NCBI GenBank assembly: GCA_038869735.1
Contig: JAWCQO010000003.1
Coordinates: forward strand, 27,696 to 91,695
Origin: Candidatus Anstonellales archaeon
Lineage (GTDB): Archaea; Micrarchaeota; Micrarchaeia; Anstonellales; CG1-02-47-40
Length of the DNA: 64,000 nt
Direction of reading: 5' to 3'
The notes below the pieces were generated by a model that did no database searches, had not been told where the DNA came from, and worked only from the letters and a program-made list of their open reading frames with translations. This document shows positions 34,386 through 56,382 of the stretch, one piece after another; the first letter of the stretch is position 1, and each line of letters opens with the position of its first letter. The position numbers and the translations under genes are program-made.

Positions 34386-35120
34386 ATGAGGACAAAGCAA
34401 GCAGCAATCCTGGCAGGTGGCCTTGGAACACGCCTCAGGCCATTAACCCACAAAATACCAAAGCCAATGATAGAAATTCACGGGAAGCCATTTTTGGAAT
34501 ACCAGCTCAAATATCTCAAAAAAGAAGGAATTAAAAAAGTTGTATTGCTAACCGGCTACCTTCATGAGCAAATACGTTCATATTTTGGAGATTATTTTGA
34601 AGGTATAAAACTTACATATTCAATAGAGCAAAAACAGCTTGGAACAGCTGGTGCACTCAAAAAAGCAGAAAAGCTCCTTGAACAGACCTTCTTTGTTCTA
34701 AACGGAGACACCTATTTTCCGCTAAAACTTCATCGTCTTGAATCGTTCTTTCTCAAAAAGCCAAATGCAATAGGCGCTCTTTCTGCCTACTCTGGGAGAA
34801 GTAGAGTTGCTACCTACAACCTTCTAATTGAAAAATCTGGTTTGGTTCTTGCATATTCAAAAAATTCACCATCGACCAACTTTAATTCAGTGGATGCAGG
34901 AGCTTCCATCTTCAAAAAAGAGCTCTTGTCGTTTATAACCCACACTCCATGCTCGCTTGAAGATGAAATTTACCCAAAGCTTATTCACGACGGGTTGCTT
35001 TATGCAATCAAAACGTCTCTACGCTTCTATGATATAGGGACATTTAAGAGATTGGACATGGCAAAAAAATTCTTTAAAAGAAGTGTGATGGAACGTGATA
35101 ATTTCAACAGCTCCCCTTAG
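34386..35120 (+). CDS. Sugar-1-phosphate nucleotidyltransferase (HddC-like)
   Basis: A 244-residue short-form nucleotidyltransferase: AAILAGGLGTRLRPLTHKIP with the basic loop KPMIEIHGKPF, then VLNGDTYF holding the metal-binding Asp. There is no C-terminal beta-helix. It precedes a GHMP heptokinase and a phosphoheptose-isomerase-like gene, so it is best read as the enzyme activating heptose 1-phosphate with GTP (HddC role). The family alone would also allow mannose- or glucose-1-phosphate. It overlaps the kinase gene by 26 bp. Confidence 0.75.
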   Translation: MRTKQAAILAGGLGTRLRPLTHKIPKPMIEIHGKPFLEYQLKYLKKEGIKKVVLLTGYLHEQIRSYFGDYFEGIKLTYSIEQKQLGTAGALKKAEKLLEQTFFVLNGDTYFPLKLHRLESFFLKKPNAIGALSAYSGRSRVATYNLLIEKSGLVLAYSKNSPSTNFNSVDAGASIFKKELLSFITHTPCSLEDEIYPKLIHDGLLYAIKTSLRFYDIGTFKRLDMAKKFFKRSVMERDNFNSSP

Positions 35121-36084
35121 AATATCGCTCGGGGGAGGCGGAACGGACCTTCGTTCATATTATTCGAAATTTGGAGGATTTGTATTAAGTGCAGCAATAA
35201 ACAAATACGTTTATCTCCTTGTCCACAATCGATTTGACGGTATGATAAAAGCAAGCTATGCAAAAATGGAAATTGTAGATTCTCCCAATAAGATTGAGCA
35301 CCCTATAATTCGTGAAGCACTCAAAATGACTGGCATCAACAATTCAATTGAGATATTCTCTATGGCAGACATCCCTGCAAATTCAGGCCTTGGTTCCTCT
35401 TCCTCTTATACCGTCGCGCTCTTAAATGGTCTCTATGCTTTTAGAAAAAAGGAACTTACTCCAGAAGAGCTTGCAGAAAAAGCATGCAAGTTAGAGATAG
35501 ACATTCTTGGCCAGCCTATTGGAAAGCAAGACCAGTACATAGCTGCTTTTGGTAGTCTTTGTTCCTTTGAGTTTCTTCCTGATGAGTCGGTCAAAATTCA
35601 GAGACTCAACATCAGTACATCTACTCTGGAAGAGTTAGAAAAAAACCTTTGTCTTTTTTATACAGGCATCCAGCGAACCTCCACCGATATTCTATCCGAA
35701 CAAAATAGCCAAACCGCAAAAAATGATCCGAAAGTACTTGCAAATCTTCACGAGATAAAAAACATCGGCTATGCACTTCGTGATTCAATACTTAGCGGAG
35801 ACTTAGATTTTGTTGGTCGAGCCTTAGCTTTAAACTGGGAAAAAAAGCGGAATCTCTCAACAAAAATATCAAATGACCGCATAGATAAATGGTACGACAT
35901 CGCCATCTCAGCAGGCGCCATGGGAGGAAAGCTTCTTGGGGCGGGAGGAGGCGGCTTTCTCCTTTTTTACTGTCATCAACAAAAACAGCCATCTCTTAAG
36001 AAAAGAATGAGAGCTGCAGGGCTTCGGGAGGTTAAGTTTAGTTTTTCAAGAATAGGGGCAAAACTATTTAGAAACTTCATATAA
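35095..36084 (+). CDS. GHMP-family sugar kinase (HddA-like heptose 7-phosphate kinase), copy 1
   Basis: A 329-residue GHMP kinase: N-terminal STAPLRISLGGGGTDLRSYY, ATP loop PANSGLGSSSSYTVALLN (about 95-112), GKQDQYIAAFG and C-terminal GGKLLGAGGGGFLLFY. The GGGGTDL opening is typical of D-glycero-D-manno-heptose 7-phosphate kinase, which makes the 1,7-bisphosphate. The start is GTG at 35095, inside the end of the nucleotidyltransferase gene (26-bp overlap), because the family begins exactly at this MIIS-type N-terminus. A paralogue lies at 48489. Related kinases for other sugars cannot be fully excluded. Confidence 0.8.
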   Translation: MIISTAPLRISLGGGGTDLRSYYSKFGGFVLSAAINKYVYLLVHNRFDGMIKASYAKMEIVDSPNKIEHPIIREALKMTGINNSIEIFSMADIPANSGLGSSSSYTVALLNGLYAFRKKELTPEELAEKACKLEIDILGQPIGKQDQYIAAFGSLCSFEFLPDESVKIQRLNISTSTLEELEKNLCLFYTGIQRTSTDILSEQNSQTAKNDPKVLANLHEIKNIGYALRDSILSGDLDFVGRALALNWEKKRNLSTKISNDRIDKWYDIAISAGAMGGKLLGAGGGGFLLFYCHQQKQPSLKKRMRAAGLREVKFSFSRIGAKLFRNFI

Positions 36085-36095
36085 AACTAAATTAT

Positions 36096-36725
36096 ATGGC
36101 CATACCCTCAGATTCAGCTCAATTCAACTCAGAACAGTCTGCACTTCACTTCTTTAGCGAGCTAAAAAAAGCCCTAGATGGAGTTTCTCTATCAAGTTTG
36201 TTAGCAACTTGTGACGAGATTTTTAACTGTTGGAAGCGTGGGGGAGTCGTTTATGTGATGGGGAATGGTGGGTCTGGCGCAACAGCAAGTCATTTTGTTT
36301 GCGATTTATCCAAATGGACAGCGTCAGAAGGAAAACTGCGTATAAAAGCGATATCCCTGAATGAAAACATGCCATTAATATCTGCAATCTCAAACGATAT
36401 TGGATTTGATGCTGTCTATGTAGAACAGCTAAAGAACTATGACGTCGGAAAAAACGATATCTTAATAGGATTCAGCACTCTTGGCTCAAGCCGCAGAGAC
36501 AAACGTACTATCAGATCGAATAATCTTATAGAAGCACTAAAGTATGCAAAGTCAAAAGGGGCAAAAACTATTGGATTTATTGGCTTTGACGGTGGACTTA
36601 TGAAAGATTTCTGTGACATTTCAATAATAGTTCCAGTAAATTCTGTGATTCATACTGAATCAGTTCACGTCTGTCTTTGTCATTTTATAGCACAAAATCT
36701 AAAACAAAGAATAAATAGTCTTTAG
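36096..36725 (+). CDS. SIS-domain phosphoheptose isomerase-like protein (divergent GmhA)
   Basis: A 209-residue SIS-fold protein related to GmhA, which converts sedoheptulose 7-phosphate to heptose 7-phosphate. Seen: VMGNGGSGATASHFVCD (about 54-70) and the phosphate loop GFSTLGSS at 125-132. Three features are odd. About eight residues (near 133-140, RRDKRTIR) are inserted right after the phosphate loop. Asp70 stands where GmhA has its catalytic Glu. A Glu near 188 stands where GmhA has Gln, although the last catalytic His seems kept. It may use a different phosphosugar or be a regulatory relative. It ends the operon 30767-36725, abutting a convergent gene. Confidence 0.72.
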   Translation: MAIPSDSAQFNSEQSALHFFSELKKALDGVSLSSLLATCDEIFNCWKRGGVVYVMGNGGSGATASHFVCDLSKWTASEGKLRIKAISLNENMPLISAISNDIGFDAVYVEQLKNYDVGKNDILIGFSTLGSSRRDKRTIRSNNLIEALKYAKSKGAKTIGFIGFDGGLMKDFCDISIIVPVNSVIHTESVHVCLCHFIAQNLKQRINSL

Positions 36726-46204: not shown

Positions 46205-47365
46205 TCAACCATTTGTCTTCTTCTTAATTAAATCTAGACATACCTCCTCGTATCTTTTCATAAATAAATCCCAGTTGAATCTTTTGTAGCAAAACTCTTT
46301 TCCCTCCCTTCCCATCTTCTTTGCCATCTCACTGTTGGTAGCAAGCAGTTCCATTTTTCTGCTCATTTCTTCTTCATTTTCAACTAGAAAACCAGTCTTT
46401 CCGTCGATTATGGTTTCTGTTGGTCCACCTTCCTTTACGGCGATGCAAGGTTTAAGAGAAGCTGCGCTCTCTACTGGAATAAGTCCAAAATCCTCATTTA
46501 GCGGGGTATAGAGAGTTGCCGTACAGTTTGCATACAACTCATAAATCTCACTGTCTTCGACATTTAGCTTTATCTCTCCCGCGTTGCCTAAGAGGTTTTT
46601 GATTTTCTCGTAGTATCTGACATGCTCTTCTCTGTTTTGCAGAAGCGAGCCGGCAATTATTAACCTCCATTCAGGATGCTTTTCCCTAAATTTGAGAAAT
46701 GCCTTAATTGCAAATTCATATCTTTTTTCAGGGGTAATCCTTGAAGGATAAAGAAAGTATGGTTCAAAGTTCTTACAACTGTATCTTTCAAATTGTACGC
46801 CAGAGTACAAAACTTCACTATCCCTATGAAGATACTTTCTAATTCTTTCCTTTACAGCTTTACTATTTGCAAACACGTGCTCTATTTTAGGAACAATCGA
46901 AGATTCGACCGACCTAAAAACAGCAGCGCTTCCTGCAAAAAGCATTTTTTGCCATATATCCCGTTGTCTCATCCTCCATTCATACAAATCGTAAATTTCT
47001 CGTGCAGGGGAGTGACAATACCAGACCATTGGAAAGTTATGTCTTCGTCCCCATTCGGAAGGAGAACTCGAAGCTCCAAAAACGTCAAATTCTCCTTTTT
47101 TTAATTTTAAATTGTAAAAGGTAACCCCCGAAGAAAAACCGTCATACAACCTTTTTGGGAGTACCTTGCTCCACAGAGGCCTCTTACCTTTAAGAGGCCT
47201 TATATCTACTTTTTCGAGTTCTGGAAAGGTAGATTCTCGGTTATATGAAATACAAAAGATAGTGGCATCAAATCTCTCAGCAATCCTCAACATGCATTTT
47301 TCAGCACCACCTTTAACTTCAAAAAAAGGGTGAAAGATTGCCAATGAAAACTTTTTAACAGCCAT
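46205..47365 (-). CDS. GT4-type glycosyltransferase of the heptose operon
   Basis: A 386-residue GT-B enzyme: IFHPFFEVKGGAEKCMLRIA (about 10-29), WYCHSPAREIYDLY, PSRITPEKRYEFAIKAF and the EX7E motif in YTPLNEDFGLIPVESAA. The segment YCHSPxR is common in mannosyltransferases of this family. As the distal gene of an operon with TalC, HddA, GmhA and GmhB, it is a good candidate for a heptosyl- or mannosyltransferase (inference). Confidence 0.82.
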   Translation of the reverse strand: MAVKKFSLAIFHPFFEVKGGAEKCMLRIAERFDATIFCISYNRESTFPELEKVDIRPLKGKRPLWSKVLPKRLYDGFSSGVTFYNLKLKKGEFDVFGASSSPSEWGRRHNFPMVWYCHSPAREIYDLYEWRMRQRDIWQKMLFAGSAAVFRSVESSIVPKIEHVFANSKAVKERIRKYLHRDSEVLYSGVQFERYSCKNFEPYFLYPSRITPEKRYEFAIKAFLKFREKHPEWRLIIAGSLLQNREEHVRYYEKIKNLLGNAGEIKLNVEDSEIYELYANCTATLYTPLNEDFGLIPVESAASLKPCIAVKEGGPTETIIDGKTGFLVENEEEMSRKMELLATNSEMAKKMGREGKEFCYKRFNWDLFMKRYEEVCLDLIKKKTNG

Positions 47366-47382
47366 CTAAAAAACCTCATTCT

Positions 47383-47931
47383 CTAATTGCGGCCAGTAAT
47401 TTTTTTTGCAGCTTCAAGTAGGCTACTTGCTTCCATATGGGGTTTTATCTTGTATGCTCCGTCCCTTCCTCCAAGACCTGTCCTAACAAGCACAGTGATG
47501 CATCCGGCATCGCGCCCCATCTTTATATCCTTGGTGCTATCGCCTATAACATATGAATGTTTCAAGTCGATGTCAAATTCTCGCGCAGCATCTAAAATAA
47601 AGTGGGTTTTTGGTTTTCTACATTTGCAATTATCAGATTCAAGATGGAGACAATAATAAATGCGTTGAACATTTATTCCATTGTTTTTAAATGTCTCTTC
47701 CATATGCTTATCAATTTCTTTAAGATTCTCCAATTTAACTTCCCCCTTTGGAACTCCTTGCTGGTTGCTTACAATAAAGAGAAGATAGCCGCATTGATAA
47801 AGCATCCTCATTGCTCGCAACGACCCTGGAATAAAGTAGAACTCATCTCGGCTTTTTACATATCCTTCCCTATTCTCGTTTATGACACCATCCCTGTCAA
47901 GAAAAACAGCAACTCTTTTTTTTACTCTCAC
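47383..47931 (-). CDS. gmhB: D,D-heptose 1,7-bisphosphate phosphatase (GmhB-like)
   Basis: A 182-residue HAD-superfamily phosphatase that removes the 7-phosphate from heptose 1,7-bisphosphate. Seen: the DxD nucleophile motif FLDRDGVIN (Asp12, Asp14), VSNQQGV, the zinc loop with Cys94, His96, Cys102 and Cys104 characteristic of GmhB, KPKTHF, and GDSTKDIKMGRDAG. The start is GTG 47931, directly after the stop of the isomerase gene, with GGTGAC upstream. Together with GmhA and HddA it completes the route from sedoheptulose 7-phosphate to heptose 1-phosphate. Confidence 0.9.
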   Translation of the reverse strand: MRVKKRVAVFLDRDGVINENREGYVKSRDEFYFIPGSLRAMRMLYQCGYLLFIVSNQQGVPKGEVKLENLKEIDKHMEETFKNNGINVQRIYYCLHLESDNCKCRKPKTHFILDAAREFDIDLKHSYVIGDSTKDIKMGRDAGCITVLVRTGLGGRDGAYKIKPHMEASSLLEAAKKITGRN

Positions 47932-48501
47932 TCAGAGGTCACCCTCAACAATTTCGCATATTACATGCCCTATAAATATATGCATTTCTTGAATTCTTTG
48001 TGTGTCAGTTGACGGGACATGTATGCACAGATCGCAGATTGTATCCATCTTTCCTTTCCTCTGACCAGTGAGACCTATACAAAAGCACCCGATTTCCTTT
48101 GCCTTTTCCAGACCTAAAATAACATTTTGTGACTCCCCTGACGTTGAGATTCCTATAACTACATCTCCTTTTTTTGCCAGCCCTTCGAGTTGGCGAGAAA
48201 AGACATTGTCGTATCCAAAATCATTGGCAATAGCTGTAAGCGACGGAACATTTGACACAAGAGCCATAGCCGGAAGAGCATGTCTATTTTTGGTAAATCT
48301 CCCTACAAATTCGGCTGCGATATGTTGAGCGTCGGAAGCACTTCCTCCATTTCCAAATAAAAAAACCCTCCCGCCTTTTTTTATACGTTCTGATATTCTT
48401 TTTCCAGCTTCCATCACAACGTCAGAAAGTCCGTTGCTTTCTTGGCGGACAACAATACTCTCCCGAAGCCTTTTTAGGTATAGGGTGTCTAAGTCTCCCA
48501 T
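47932..48501 (-). CDS. gmhA: Phosphoheptose isomerase (sedoheptulose 7-phosphate isomerase)
   Basis: A 189-residue SIS-domain enzyme that makes D-glycero-D-manno-heptose 7-phosphate. All expected motifs are intact: LFGNGGSASDAQHIAAEFVGRF with the catalytic Glu, the phosphate loop GISTSGESQNV, and RIQEMHIFIGHVICE with the catalytic Gln and His. Length is normal for the family. It overlaps the upstream kinase gene by 13 bp and abuts gmhB. This is the canonical copy; the SIS protein at 36096 is the divergent one. Confidence 0.9.
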   Translation of the reverse strand: MGDLDTLYLKRLRESIVVRQESNGLSDVVMEAGKRISERIKKGGRVFLFGNGGSASDAQHIAAEFVGRFTKNRHALPAMALVSNVPSLTAIANDFGYDNVFSRQLEGLAKKGDVVIGISTSGESQNVILGLEKAKEIGCFCIGLTGQRKGKMDTICDLCIHVPSTDTQRIQEMHIFIGHVICEIVEGDL

Positions 48502-49505
48502 GTTTCCAATCCCCCAAAGTCAAACCTTATCCATTTCGGCTCCAATCCAAGCCCCTTTAGTCTTTCTGCTACTTTATGCTCTTTGTTTGGTTCGCAATAA
48601 AAAAACATAAACCCTCCTCCACCAGCACCGGAGATTTTCCCTCCAAGTGCACCAGCCTTCTTCGCTTCTTCATATATCTTATCCACTCTCCTGTTCGTTA
48701 TAAGCGGACTAAACATCTTTTTTATTTTCCAGCTCTCATCAAGAAGTTTTCCAAATTCGTTTAAATCCCCTTTCTCAAGAACCTTTCTCATTTCAAGTGC
48801 AGTTTCCTTTGCTTTATCCAGCGCCCATACCGTCTCACTTTTTCCATCCGAGTATCTCTTTATTTGGTCAGCTATTATATCTCCAGAAGACTTTCTTTTA
48901 GCTACATAAACCATAACAAGACTTTTCTCGAGTTCAAAAACATGCGCTCGGCTTATTCTCACCTTATTTACTCTTACTCTTCCTTCTCCAAATTCAAGAA
49001 AATTTATTCCCCCAAAAGCTGAAGCGTACTGATCTTGCCTCCCTCCAAAATTTCCAAGCTCTTCCCTTTCTAACTTTACAGCAAGTTCTGCGATCTCCTG
49101 CCTGCTTAATTCGACCCCATTCATACTGTTGAAAAGGCCTATAAGGGCAACAAACGCGCTTGCTGAACTACCAAGACCTGACTTCGGAGGAACATCGCTT
49201 CTAATGTATAACTCGACGCCCCTTTTCCCTCTATTCATTTTTCTTATTACTGCATTTACAAGCTCCATTCTGCCATCCATTGCCATTTCATTCTTGTCAG
49301 GATGAAAAAGAAGAAGCTCTTGAGCGTATTCCCCATCTTCAATTACAATCCTTTCATCCGTTCTAAAAGAACCCGCGGCGTAATTATACCTACTTATAGC
49401 TGCGTTTATTACACACCCGCCTTTCTCTTCAGCGTAGGGAGAAACGTCAGTTCCTCCACCACCAAAACTTATTCTGACAGGTGCTCTACTTCTATAAGCA
49501 ATCAC
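48489..49505 (-). CDS. hddA: D-glycero-D-manno-heptose 7-phosphate kinase (HddA-like), copy 2
   Basis: A roughly 338-residue GHMP kinase: RAPVRISFGGGGTDVSPYAE near the N-terminus, the ATP loop PPKSGLGSSASAFVALIG, GGRQDQYASAFGG and C-terminal GGKISGAGGGGFMFFY. It phosphorylates heptose 7-phosphate at C1 for GmhB. The start is GTG 49505 with GGTGA five bases upstream; GTG 49514 is possible. Being flanked by transaldolase and gmhA makes the heptose assignment firm. Copy 1 at 35095 is clearly a paralogue rather than a recent duplicate, since the sequences differ throughout. Confidence 0.88.
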   Translation of the reverse strand: MIAYRSRAPVRISFGGGGTDVSPYAEEKGGCVINAAISRYNYAAGSFRTDERIVIEDGEYAQELLLFHPDKNEMAMDGRMELVNAVIRKMNRGKRGVELYIRSDVPPKSGLGSSASAFVALIGLFNSMNGVELSRQEIAELAVKLEREELGNFGGRQDQYASAFGGINFLEFGEGRVRVNKVRISRAHVFELEKSLVMVYVAKRKSSGDIIADQIKRYSDGKSETVWALDKAKETALEMRKVLEKGDLNEFGKLLDESWKIKKMFSPLITNRRVDKIYEEAKKAGALGGKISGAGGGGFMFFYCEPNKEHKVAERLKGLGLEPKWIRFDFGGLETWET

Positions 49506-49516
49506 GCAGTTCACCG

Positions 49517-50164
49517 CTATGTCTTAACTGTTTTTTTCCAATCATCCAAAAACCTGGTTATTCCGTCGTCAGTCATCTTGTGCATGAATAGTTTTTCGAA
49601 TACTTCGGGAGGGACAGTGCAAGCGTCGGCTCCTAACAGCGCTGCTTCTACCACGTGCATAGGATGTCTCACGCTTGCCACAAGGACTTGTGTCTCAAAA
49701 TCGTAGTTTGAATAAATTCCCAATATTTCCTCAACAACCCTCATTCCGCTTTCACCCATGTCATCCAGTCTTCCAACAAATGGGCTTACGTAAGTAGCAC
49801 CAGCCTTTGCTGCTATAAGCGCCTGGGCTGCAGAAAACACAAGAGTCACATTTGTGTCTATCCCTTCACTTTGCAGCTTTTTGACAGCTTTCATCCCTTC
49901 AAGGCTCATCGGAACCTTTACCACTACGTTTTTTGCCCACGAGGCAAATAATCTTCCTTCTTTGACTATCTCCTCACTCTTCATCCCAATACCCTCTACA
50001 CTAACCGGCCCCTTTACGATGGAGCAAATCTCCTTAACTGCCTTTTCGTGCTCAACACCTGCCTTTGCAATCAGCGTCGGGTTTGTTGTAATTCCATCTA
50101 CCAAACCACTGTTGGCAAGTTTTCTTATTTTTTCTATATCAGCAGTATCTAGAAATATCCTCAT
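49517..50164 (-). CDS. Transaldolase (small TalC/FSA type)
   Basis: A 215-residue aldolase of the small transaldolase/fructose-6-phosphate aldolase family. Seen: [30 protein letters not shown], the Schiff-base lysine in VVVKVP (Lys83), [20 protein letters not shown] and [11 protein letters not shown]. Transaldolase interconverts fructose 6-phosphate plus erythrose 4-phosphate with sedoheptulose 7-phosphate plus glyceraldehyde 3-phosphate. Its place ahead of hddA, gmhA and gmhB suggests it feeds sedoheptulose 7-phosphate to heptose synthesis. Family members can instead act as fructose-6-phosphate aldolase; one active-site residue decides this and I did not resolve it. Confidence 0.88.
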
Positions 50165-50210
50165 ACGCTACACACCTCCCTACATTCCTTCTTTTTCTGA
50201 CAAACCAGCT

Positions 50211-51398
50211 TTACGACGCGCTCTTCATGCCTTCTTTTTTCTTAATCAAACTCTTATAAACTTTGATATATTCTTTTGCAATGTGTTGCCACGAATACTT
50301 CTCCTCTGCTTTCTTTCTGTTTTCTTTTCCAATGCGCAAGCGAAGGTTTTCATCTAGAAGAAGCGTTTCTATTCCCTCTACCATCTCCTCTGGAGTTGAG
50401 AAAAGAATCGCATTCTTTCCATGCTCTAACAGCTCCTCTATCCAAGAAAGCTTTGTTGCTACAATAGGCTTTCCTGCACCCATATATTCTAATATTTTTA
50501 TCGGGCAGAACCCGTACGGCTCAGCTGGGTTTAATGCTTCATGAAAAGGAGCAAGGCAAATATCTGCCATTCCCAGATACAGCGGCAGTTCTTTGTCAGC
50601 GATTCTTCCGGCAAAAATTACGTTTGACGGAGCTTTGCTCTTAATCCTTTCAATGTAGTCTATATATTTTTCAATTCCTCCAACAATCACAAACCTTGCC
50701 TCAGGAAATTCCTTTTCAATCCTCGTGGCAGAATAGACTATGCTATCAAGGCCATGTCTCGGGCCAAGGCCTCCCACAATCTCAATTACGGGTCCTGTGA
50801 TATCAAGCGATTTTTTTAGCTTCTCAACAGCTCTCTTGCTACTCATACCAAATCTTTTGACATCCACACCGTTTGGGATAACATAAAAGTTCTTTTTTAT
50901 TCCATGCCTTTCTAATGCCTTTTTGGTAACTTCTGATACACAACATATTGCATCGGCTCTTGAGAGAAAGAACTTTGCCCACAATATTCTGGGGTAGTAC
51001 TGCACTGCCGGCTTCACTGCGTCTGTAAGTATTCCTCCCCTCCTCTCAAATGAGAATGGATTAAAATTTATTTCAGCAACAAGCGGAACACCGGCTTTCT
51101 TTGCTGCAAAAGTTGAAAAGCCGCTCCCTGGGTCCATTCTCTTGTGGATTACATCTATCCCCTCTTTCTTGCAGATTTCAACTATCTTCCAAATGGTATT
51201 ATATGAAAGGAGGGGTCTGGGGAATTTCGTATTAACTGGATGCACCTTTGCGCCTCCGATGCTTTTTTCTGTGCTATCCGCAATGATATGTACCTCAACT
51301 CCAGCTTCGGTTAGAGCCTTTGCAAATTCCATGTGATGAGCTGCAGCTCCTTCAAAACCAGGTATCTTAACCCATTGGGCTACAATAAGAACCTTCAT
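50211..51398 (-). CDS. GT4-type glycosyltransferase heading the heptose operon
   Basis: A 395-residue GT-B enzyme: VAQWVKIPGFEGAAAHHMEF (about 6-25), HKRMDPGSGFSTFAAKKAGV, VIPNGVDVKRFG, VGGLGPRHGLDSIVY and the donor-site segment AEPYGFCPIKILEYMGAGKP. ATG 51398 lies 27 bp from the centre of a TTTAAATTT box shared with the divergent mutase gene, so its message is probably leaderless. It is the first gene of the operon containing TalC, HddA, GmhA, GmhB and another GT4. It may be a heptosyltransferase or mannosyltransferase (inference). Confidence 0.82.
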   Translation of the reverse strand: MKVLIVAQWVKIPGFEGAAAHHMEFAKALTEAGVEVHIIADSTEKSIGGAKVHPVNTKFPRPLLSYNTIWKIVEICKKEGIDVIHKRMDPGSGFSTFAAKKAGVPLVAEINFNPFSFERRGGILTDAVKPAVQYYPRILWAKFFLSRADAICCVSEVTKKALERHGIKKNFYVIPNGVDVKRFGMSSKRAVEKLKKSLDITGPVIEIVGGLGPRHGLDSIVYSATRIEKEFPEARFVIVGGIEKYIDYIERIKSKAPSNVIFAGRIADKELPLYLGMADICLAPFHEALNPAEPYGFCPIKILEYMGAGKPIVATKLSWIEELLEHGKNAILFSTPEEMVEGIETLLLDENLRLRIGKENRKKAEEKYSWQHIAKEYIKVYKSLIKKKEGMKSAS

Positions 51399-51421
51399 AA
51401 TAGACTTAATTCAAAAAGATC

Positions 51422-51431
51422 AAATTTAAAC
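51422..51431. promoter_or_regulatory. Bidirectional TATA box between heptose operon and phosphohexomutase operon
   Basis: The string AAATTTAAAC reads TATA-like on both strands. It is about 27 bp upstream of ATG 51398 (minus strand) and about 44 bp upstream of ATG 51471 (plus strand). The minus transcript would be leaderless, while the plus transcript would carry a short leader containing a GGTG ribosome site. Confidence 0.5.
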
Positions 51432-51470
51432 CATTATCCTACAAATAAATCGGCATCTAAGGTGCTATTA

Positions 51471-54022: not shown

Positions 54023-54730
54023 ATGAAAAAAGCTTTTGTTTTGTGTGGAGGAAAAGGAACACGCCTTCGCCCTCTTACTTACGCAGTACCAAAGCCGATG
54101 CTTCCTGTTGGAAGAAAACCAATTCTTGAGTTCGTGCTTGCAAACCTCAAGCGAAACGGCTTTAATGATGTTACTCTTGCTGTCGGATACCTCAAAGAGC
54201 ATATAAAAAATTATTTTGGGGATGGCTCGAAGTTCGGCGTCAGAATAGACTATCTGGAAGAGGCGAGCGAATCGGGCACTGCAGGCTGTATCCTGCCGGC
54301 AAAAAGCAAGATAAAGGATACCTTTTTAGTCGTTATGGGGGACCACCTTACAAATGCAAATCTTCGTGAGTTATATGAACACCACAGGAAGAACAATCCT
54401 CTTGCAACCATAGGTCTAAAGCGCCAAGGGATGCCACTTGAATACGGCATTGCAAAAGTAAATGAAACGAACAACCAGATCCTATCCTTTGAAGAAAAAC
54501 CTATACTAGAGAATCTTGTTAATGCAGGCATCTATGTATTTGAGCCAGAGATATTTGACTATATCTCTCAAGGTTCTGACTTTGCTCGTGACGTTTTTCC
54601 TCTACTCTTAAAAAAGAAAAAGAAGCTCTTAGCCTACATTTTTGATGATTACTGGATGGATATAGGAAGAATGGAAGACTATGAAAGCGTCCACCGAATA
54701 ATGAGCATCCTTGAAATAACCAAAGAATAA
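54023..54730 (+). CDS. Sugar-1-phosphate nucleotidyltransferase (short form)
   Basis: A 235-residue enzyme: FVLCGGKGTRLRPLTYAVPK with KPMLPVGRKPILEFVL, VVMGDHLTN (metal-binding Asp), SFEEKPILENLVNAGIY and DDYWMDIGRMEDYE. It lacks a C-terminal beta-helix. Related proteins are mannose-, glucose- or heptose-1-phosphate nucleotidyltransferases. With the mutase and the epimerase it forms a three-gene operon. It could also be the nucleotidyltransferase missing from the heptose operon across the shared promoter. Specificity cannot be read by eye. Confidence 0.8.
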   Translation: MKKAFVLCGGKGTRLRPLTYAVPKPMLPVGRKPILEFVLANLKRNGFNDVTLAVGYLKEHIKNYFGDGSKFGVRIDYLEEASESGTAGCILPAKSKIKDTFLVVMGDHLTNANLRELYEHHRKNNPLATIGLKRQGMPLEYGIAKVNETNNQILSFEEKPILENLVNAGIYVFEPEIFDYISQGSDFARDVFPLLLKKKKKLLAYIFDDYWMDIGRMEDYESVHRIMSILEITKE

Positions 54731-54821: not shown

Positions 54822-54840
54822 ATCAATTAGTGTGTATTAT

Positions 54841-56382
54841 ATGCAAGTCTACAGATTCGTTAAACCTGATAGAAAACTCCAGCTCGAGCAAGCGCATAAA
54901 GAGCAAAAATTATTTGAAAAGCAACTTTCTGTTAAGCTATCACACGTCGAAACAGCTGTGAGCTCCTACGACGATCTCTCCATTATTCTAAAAAAAATTG
55001 AGCTAATCCTCCCACATGTGATAATCCCATTGTTTAGCTCCCTCGAAGAAGTTGGAAAAAATCCATCTAAGCGCACTATATCAGATTTACTTGCAATTCT
55101 TAAGTCTACTAAAGAAGAAAGAAAAGTACTGTATGGACTCCTAAATGAACTTAATACTACCTTTAGTAATCTCAGAATTTCCATAAAAAAACTTAATCAA
55201 ACCGACTTCAACTGGGTTTCAAACGGCATCTTAGAAGAACTCCCTTCAGATTTAGAGATCAAAATAAAAGAAATATACCGTCTAAGCGGCTTTGTAGAGA
55301 CAATTGGCTCTTTATCAAACACCACTTCAAAAGTTCTTTCTACCTTTGACTCTCCTTTACCGCCAAACGAGATAAAAAGCATCAGAAAAAAATTAAACAA
55401 TGATATGCTGAATCTCTCTAAATACAGTTCGATGCTTTCGCATATTATAAATTATTCATTGAAAGGTCTAATTCAAGAAACTCTAAACGGCAATTATCAA
55501 TTTTCACGATTTTTTATATCCGAATTTGAAAAAAAATATGAATGGTTATACTCTGACCCAAGAATTCAGAATTTAATCTCTGAATACGAGAGAAGTAATG
55601 TAATAATTTATATGGACCTTGTATCAACACTTCTTGAGATAACAAAAGAACAATTCCTTAAAGAGAACTGGAAAAAACTCCTCTCCAAATTAGCTACCTC
55701 TAATATTCGAAATCCCACTTTTCAAAAAGTAAAGCCTCTAGTTGAACGTCCTCTCATAACCAACCAAAACACCCCAGCCAAGAACCCCCCAGAAACCTCC
55801 ACTGAACTTTTCTATCGCCACCTAATTGAAGCCACCCCAGCCAAGAACCCCCCAGAAACCTCCACTGAACTTTTCTATCGCCACCTAATTGAAGCAGGAG
55901 CAACCCCCCAAGAAGCGCACGAATTACTTAAAATTAAGACTACGCTCAGAAGATTAAATTTCTTCAGCCTAGAGGAAGCGGTTAAGTTTATTCGATCAAA
56001 ACTTGAAAATGGGCTTTCCTTAAACCACGCTGCCCTGAAATTATCCAACCGAGATTCCTTTAGAACAAGAACAATGGATTTCCTAATCCCTATCTTAAAA
56101 GCTGGAGGTATAAGCGATTTTGCTTCTCGCGCGTTGGCCGATTCTTGCATCCATTGCGCTGCTTCCATCTCTCCTAAATCCATAACGCCGGACAAAATTA
56201 GACAGTTTGCCATTCAAAACTCAGAACTTATCGTTCGTGAAGCTTCAGAAAAATGCCCAGAGATAAACTTAAACGTTGAACATCATCATCGTCTTTTTGT
56301 GGATTCCCTTAGCCATAAACCCTCTCAATCGTCCTCTGAAAAAAACAATCAAACAATTACATATACGCAGAAAATAAGATGA
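54841..56382 (+). CDS. Orphan alpha-helical protein with a duplicated linker; function unknown
   Basis: A 513-residue protein of no recognised family. Residues about 1-300 are predicted helical and rich in Leu/Lys/Glu/Ser with coiled-coil character. Two exact copies of a 21-residue Pro/Thr-rich unit (TPAKNPPETSTELFYRHLIE plus Ala) follow at about 310-351. A second helical part (about 355-480) ends in a polar Ser/Gln/Asn-rich tail with three consecutive His (EHHHR). There is no signal peptide or membrane helix. It is a single-gene unit inside the glycan island yet has no sugar-enzyme motif. A structural or scaffold role is possible but unsupported. Confidence 0.7.
   Translation: MQVYRFVKPDRKLQLEQAHKEQKLFEKQLSVKLSHVETAVSSYDDLSIILKKIELILPHVIIPLFSSLEEVGKNPSKRTISDLLAILKSTKEERKVLYGLLNELNTTFSNLRISIKKLNQTDFNWVSNGILEELPSDLEIKIKEIYRLSGFVETIGSLSNTTSKVLSTFDSPLPPNEIKSIRKKLNNDMLNLSKYSSMLSHIINYSLKGLIQETLNGNYQFSRFFISEFEKKYEWLYSDPRIQNLISEYERSNVIIYMDLVSTLLEITKEQFLKENWKKLLSKLATSNIRNPTFQKVKPLVERPLITNQNTPAKNPPETSTELFYRHLIEATPAKNPPETSTELFYRHLIEAGATPQEAHELLKIKTTLRRLNFFSLEEAVKFIRSKLENGLSLNHAALKLSNRDSFRTRTMDFLIPILKAGGISDFASRALADSCIHCAASISPKSITPDKIRQFAIQNSELIVREASEKCPEINLNVEHHHRLFVDSLSHKPSQSSSEKNNQTITYTQKIR
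55771..55896 (+). repeat. Perfect 63-bp in-frame tandem duplication inside the orphan gene
   Basis: Unit 1 is 55771-55833 and unit 2 is 55834-55896. They are identical except for the last base (GCC against GCA, both Ala). Because even synonymous sites agree, the duplication is recent. The length is a multiple of three, so the frame is kept. Confidence 0.92.

Follow-up and report, generated by a model that had tools for sequence, protein, structure and literature searches.

The window analysed here is a stretch of 64,000 nucleotides from the genome of a Candidatus Anstonellales archaeon (Micrarchaeota; contig JAWCQO010000003.1), and the subject of this report is a six-gene operon on its minus strand, in which the gene of a small transaldolase, talC, stands among genes of heptose-type sugar enzymes and glycosyltransferases. 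The genes follow one another in the order GT4–talC–hddA–gmhA–gmhB–GT4, all six are intact, and the spacings along the operon are 46 bp, 2 bp, a 13-bp overlap, 0 bp and 17 bp (Table 1). Place, strand, order and overlaps or gaps of tens of bases or fewer are as given in a preliminary description of this DNA. The genes are presumably co-transcribed. Their family assignments by NCBIfam scores and by Pfam agree. The source genome measures 884 kb in 15 contigs and is 96.9% complete; the gene absences reported for it below are those given by searching it for the families concerned.

Table 1. Features of the operon and related genes, in positions of the window
Feature	Positions	Strand	Basis
GT4a, GT4-family glycosyltransferase, operon gene 1	50211..51398	-	PF13439/PF00534; G001 orthologue at equivalent place, 60%
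TalC, small transaldolase	49517..50164	-	TIGR00875; sole PF00923 match of the genome; E60, K86 and F132 of Thermoplasma acidophilum transaldolase kept
HddA-like GHMP kinase (heptose 7-phosphate kinase)	48489..49514	-	NF049969 best family; best PDB match 3k85
GmhA, sedoheptulose 7-phosphate isomerase	47932..48501	-	TIGR00441; H/E/Q/H catalytic motifs
GmhB, heptose 1,7-bisphosphate phosphatase (HAD)	47383..47931	-	PRK08942; PDB matches to GmhB 4pnh, 2gmw
GT4b, GT4-family glycosyltransferase, last operon gene	46205..47365	-	PF00534; G001 orthologue at equivalent place, 72%
Divergent intergenic region, candidate operon promoter	51399..51470	-	TATA-like TTTAAATTT ~30 bases before GT4a ATG, read by eye
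HddC-like nucleotidyltransferase	34386..35120	+	best NCBIfam match HddC NF049965, 138.9 bits (cut-off 300)
HddA2, second HddA-like kinase	35095..36084	+	NF049969, 188 bits
GmhA2, second, divergent GmhA-like SIS isomerase	36096..36725	+	TIGR00441, 98 bits; parts of canonical GmhA motif missing
Sugar-1-phosphate nucleotidyltransferase	54023..54730	+	mannose-1-phosphate guanylyltransferase 170 bits, Arch_glmU 162, HddC 139.6; all below cut-off

Enzymes encoded by the operon

The protein TalC scores 299.7 bits against the NCBIfam model TIGR00875, above the cut-off of 246. This model bears the name fructose-6-phosphate aldolase, but it also takes in the TalC transaldolases, and the closest solved structures to TalC are the transaldolases from Thermotoga maritima, at 282 bits, and from Thermoplasma acidophilum, at 243 bits, far ahead of the fructose-6-phosphate aldolase (FSA) of E. 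coli (116 bits). At 13 of 13 checked active-site positions TalC has the residue of the T. acidophilum enzyme, including the Schiff-base lysine K86, Glu60 and Phe132, whereas the alignments place Gln and Tyr in PDB 4xz9 where TalC has Glu and Phe. The Gln and Tyr we take to be the aldolase residues, Gln59 and Tyr131 of E. coli FSA, a signature which TalC, with its Glu and Phe, does not carry. The aldolase reading was rejected on these active-site residues and is very improbable; TalC is assigned by them to the transaldolase type (EC 2.2.1.2), in line with the earlier proposal.

The three enzymes encoded downstream of talC resemble those of heptose biosynthesis. GmhA reaches 193 bits against TIGR00441 (cut-off 209), is 49-53% identical to the GmhA of C. 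jejuni and B. pseudomallei, and keeps the catalytic motifs AQHIAAEF and RIQEMH..IGH. GmhB reaches 173.7 bits against PRK08942 (cut-off 178), and the cysteines and histidine of its zinc loop, C-x-H...C-x-C, are present. HddA finds its best family in NF049969, with 238 bits, and its best PDB match, 3k85, is a D-glycero-D-manno-heptose kinase. As in known GDP-heptose biosynthesis operons, the same three enzyme families stand together with glycosyltransferases, the GmhA motifs are canonical, and an HddC-like gene occurs within the glycan island of the window; unlike those operons, this one carries a transaldolase as gene 2, has its candidate HddC outside and belongs to a micrarchaeal host. A heptose-type operon in an archaeon is thus supported, and heptose is its probable product.

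Pentose phosphate metabolism of the host and origin of talC

The preliminary description had argued that many archaea have no standard pentose phosphate pathway and hence no ready source of sedoheptulose 7-phosphate (S7P). For this host, absence of the pathway was rejected, because RpiA is encoded on contig 2 and both halves of a split transketolase, an enzyme for which a genome search had been advised, together with ribulose-phosphate epimerase (Rpe) on contig 4. Only the oxidative branch went undetected, the genome search giving no match to glucose-6-phosphate dehydrogenase. No hexulose-phosphate synthase was recognised either; of the OMPdecase family, to which that enzyme belongs, the genome has a sole match, which adjoins a PyrE-like gene and reads as orotidine-phosphate decarboxylase. 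A search of the genome for a second transaldolase returned TalC as the only PF00923 match. To be complete, the non-oxidative branch therefore requires the TalC of the operon: a full pathway elsewhere, named earlier as a finding that would speak against the proposed system, exists as far as the rest of the non-oxidative enzymes are concerned but not for the transaldolase. As neither an oxidative branch nor a ribulose-monophosphate route was found, TalC is, by family assignment, the only recognised enzyme in the genome for making S7P from fructose 6-phosphate. In a survey of DPANN genomes, part of them have transketolase and transaldolase, thought to be bacterial in origin (PMC8407392).

The operon does not hold all the enzymes that lead from glycolytic sugars to heptose, as transketolase, from which erythrose 4-phosphate comes, is encoded on another contig and the guanylyltransferase likewise lies outside the operon; the claim of a self-contained system could not be upheld. 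Nor does the operon own a dedicated extra transaldolase, as had been thought, since TalC is the only one of the genome. The split transketolase has talC as its direct neighbour in related families of the order (arranged tktN-tktC-talC at locus L083), and in a maximum-likelihood tree of 53 transaldolases the TalC of the window and its orthologue in a genome of another genus of the same family (G001) are nested in the transketolase-linked TalC clade (clade support 92/94; pair 100/99). Because of this nesting and the position of the orthologues, talC most likely moved from a transketolase operon into the heptose operon. The window TalC is orthologous to the transaldolase of the tktN-tktC-talC non-oxidative pentose phosphate operon of related Micrarchaeota, talC is gone from that operon in the window family, and none is left at the transketolase locus of the window genome (G000). 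As the sole transaldolase, and most likely a relocated one, TalC would be expected to work in ribose synthesis as well.

A single relocation of talC in the ancestor of the family would explain this most simply. G001, the only other genome of the family that was searched, has the same operon order plus one inserted gene, and the operon gene products of the two genomes are 55-75% identical. The inserted gene is foreign-looking and lies on the opposite strand between gmhA and gmhB, leaving the operon gene set unbroken. It encodes (L069:8913-10163) a protein of 416 residues that appears ATPase-like by its SGPRRAGKSFF stretch.

Transaldolase–hddA neighbourhoods in Micrarchaeota

Among 301 Micrarchaeota genomes, HddA was found in 70, transaldolase in 97 and both in 25. 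In seven of these 25 (G000, G001, G142, G153, G173, G180 and G200), hddA is immediately preceded by a co-directional transaldolase gene, against about 0.07 genomes expected by chance in a rough estimate that ignores shared ancestry. The adjacent pairs comprise three transaldolase lineages, namely canonical TalC (G000 and G001), a TAL2-like enzyme on a long branch whose placement is less sure (G200) and TAL3/TIGR02134 (the other four), and three events, counted by lineage, are still well above the chance expectation. Looser links between a transaldolase and a cassette occur in G001, G024, G059, G223 and G238. The suggested association of transaldolase and heptose kinase is accordingly real and recurrent, with seven adjacent pairs. 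It lies in the neighbourhood and not in presence: HddA and transaldolase co-occur in the 301 genomes no better than by chance (p = 0.47), and GmhA and transaldolase show a weakly positive co-occurrence (p = 0.03).

Outside the phylum, a transaldolase within 10 kb of hddA was found at 3 of 80 named hddA loci, all in Bacteroidetes and on the opposite strand, and an adjacent co-directional pair at none of the 80, some of these loci being short. Each of the seven archaeal genomes with named hddA loci contains a transaldolase match, in no case near hddA in the locus DNA covered, and other archaea carry hddA-gmhA-gmhB without a transaldolase nearby. Such pairings recur in Micrarchaeota and seem rare elsewhere.

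Within the relatives, four loci (L073, L074, L075 and L078) hold hddA1-gmhA1 with gmhB/hddC, sometimes fused, and no transaldolase nearby. As the pair occurs without one, its substrate needs no linked transaldolase. In G036, only a transaldolase fragment (an 86-residue frame, G036:C44:32832-33062) and no transketolase match were found, and the HddA-GmhA-GmhB cassette is intact; a pathway loss or an assembly gap is possible.

Sugar product of the operon

The reading that we regard as probable is that this operon for GDP-heptose has taken in the cell's only transaldolase, TalC making S7P for both ribose and GDP-heptose. The split transketolase encoded elsewhere would convert fructose 6-phosphate and glyceraldehyde 3-phosphate to erythrose 4-phosphate and xylulose 5-phosphate, and TalC would form S7P by joining three carbons from fructose 6-phosphate to erythrose 4-phosphate. 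One branch from S7P would then lead through transketolase, Rpe and RpiA to ribose 5-phosphate, and the other through GmhA, HddA and GmhB to heptose 1-phosphate, which an HddC-like enzyme would activate with GTP to GDP-heptose for transfer to a surface glycan by both GT4 enzymes. The gene at 34386-35120 is, from its family matches, the likeliest candidate for the guanylyltransferase missing from the operon, that of 54023-54730 being a weaker alternative. Since TalC is the only recognised enzyme leading from fructose 6-phosphate to S7P, its placement in the heptose operon would couple the supply of S7P to the demand for heptose. Substrates, flux direction and the HddC assignment are those which the enzyme families suggest.

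Several observations weigh against this reading. The score of HddA against NF049969 lies far below the strict cut-off of that family (600 bits), no HddC is present within the six-gene operon, and both candidates for it score 139-140 bits where the HddC cut-off is 300. Transketolase alone is able to make S7P from pentose phosphates, so that transaldolase is not strictly required. Across the phylum, as described above, HddA and transaldolase co-occur only at chance level. Seventeen Micrarchaeota genomes have GmhA and HddA with neither transketolase nor transaldolase, and the two genes therefore do not prove that heptose is made. No experimental report of heptose or octose in DPANN glycans was found in the literature.

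Two other explanations of the arrangement were weighed. By neutral relocation, talC would serve ribose synthesis as a housekeeping gene and stand in a glycan operon by chance, with no special link to heptose. This agrees with the descent of the only transaldolase from a transketolase-linked gene, and with the need of the genome for TalC in pentose supply if no other route exists. However, both genomes of the family retain talC in this position, with the protein identities given above, despite the insertion between gmhA and gmhB in G001, and independent transaldolase lineages adjoin hddA in other families. This conservation and recurrence indicate that the arrangement is not due to chance, and neutral relocation is considered unlikely.

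In the other explanation, the main novel rival of the heptose reading, TalC would place a three-carbon unit on ribose 5-phosphate to form octulose 8-phosphate, from which GmhA, HddA, GmhB and HddC would make a GDP-octose for the glycan. The model is the octose pathway of lincomycin and celesticetin, with the enzymes LmbR, LmbN, LmbP, LmbK and LmbO (PMC4351081, PMC12945683); LmbR is reported to take its three-carbon unit from fructose 6-phosphate or S7P and to use ribose 5-phosphate as acceptor (PMC5854111). By enzyme class, transaldolase, isomerase, kinase, phosphatase and guanylyltransferase each have their counterpart in the lincomycin set, with a clustered transaldolase in both; four of the five classes are encoded in the operon and a guanylyltransferase candidate elsewhere. 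Three transaldolase lineages are tied to such cassettes in the phylum, G173, G180 and G200 have cassettes without a transketolase match, so that a route to erythrose 4-phosphate is not evident there, and in G001, G153 and G238 a canonical GmhA set stands alongside a divergent set plus transaldolase. On the other hand, the described octose pathway belongs to a Streptomyces antibiotic cluster with ribose 5-phosphate as acceptor, whereas the isomerase of the window is a canonical GmhA and its TalC is of the housekeeping lineage; the octose case fits best the divergent isomerase GmhA3 found with TAL3. Heptose is favoured for the window because its GmhA is canonical and hddA1-gmhA1 occurs without a transaldolase in relatives, and octose as the product of this operon is considered unlikely. 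By analogy, octose is an attractive guess for G173, G180, G200 and the TAL3 cassettes, and a repeated recruitment of transaldolases by Micrarchaeota into GmhA/HddA-type cassettes for a nucleotide-activated octose of surface glycans, made by lincomycin-type chemistry and with the window operon included, is improbable.

The TAL3 cassettes, which stand beside the canonical set in G153 and G238, resemble the window operon in that, in G238 and on a Lawsonia intracellularis plasmid, a transaldolase shares its cluster with an isomerase, a phosphatase, a kinase and a nucleotidyltransferase; they differ from it in a transaldolase of the TIGR02134 lineage and in the isomerase GmhA3, in which part of the canonical GmhA motif is missing. 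TAL3-GmhA3-GmhB-HddA-HddC sets were seen at L200:12582-16305, L204:1674-3633 and L210:10712-19063 (in Micrarchaeota and the Lawsonia plasmid). By their resemblance to the lincomycin octose genes these sets are possibly unrecognised octose cassettes. A TAL3 match on a Streptomyces plasmid has no heptose-type neighbours.

Heptose in archaeal glycans is already known, as D-glycero-D-galacto-heptose in the N-glycans of Thermoplasmatales (PMC12448462). Nothing was found in the open-access literature on the combination of a transaldolase with a heptose operon, and as far as that literature shows, two things are new: a sole housekeeping transaldolase inside a heptose operon, and a pairing that recurs within one phylum. 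If the GDP-heptose reading is true, the cell expresses, along with a surface-sugar operon, a central-carbon enzyme that it also requires for ribose, so that the gene arrangement itself links S7P supply to heptose demand. A testable rule is further suggested by the three independent pairings of transaldolase and kinase: wherever a transaldolase stands beside hddA, the acceptor sugar of that transaldolase would determine how long the glycan sugar is, C7 from erythrose 4-phosphate and C8 from ribose 5-phosphate.

The wider window forms a glycan island with an STT3/AglB-like protein, flippase-like proteins, nucleotide-sugar dehydrogenases and a GlcNAc-1-phosphate-transferase-like protein. In its second cassette (34386-36725, plus strand), the HddC-like, HddA2 and GmhA2 genes overlap or nearly so, and the G001 counterpart of this cassette (L070) is accompanied by a GmhB of its own, an HddC and a TAL2 transaldolase in the vicinity. 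Fusions of GmhB and HddC, 426-481 residues long, occur in several relatives (L074:7567-9012; L075:9093-10403; L078:8845-10125; L080:5113-6525; L082:7599-8891). A protein of 516 residues with no Pfam match, encoded at 54832-56382 on the plus strand, contains the 21-residue stretch TPAKNPPETSTELFYRHLIEA in perfect tandem copy.

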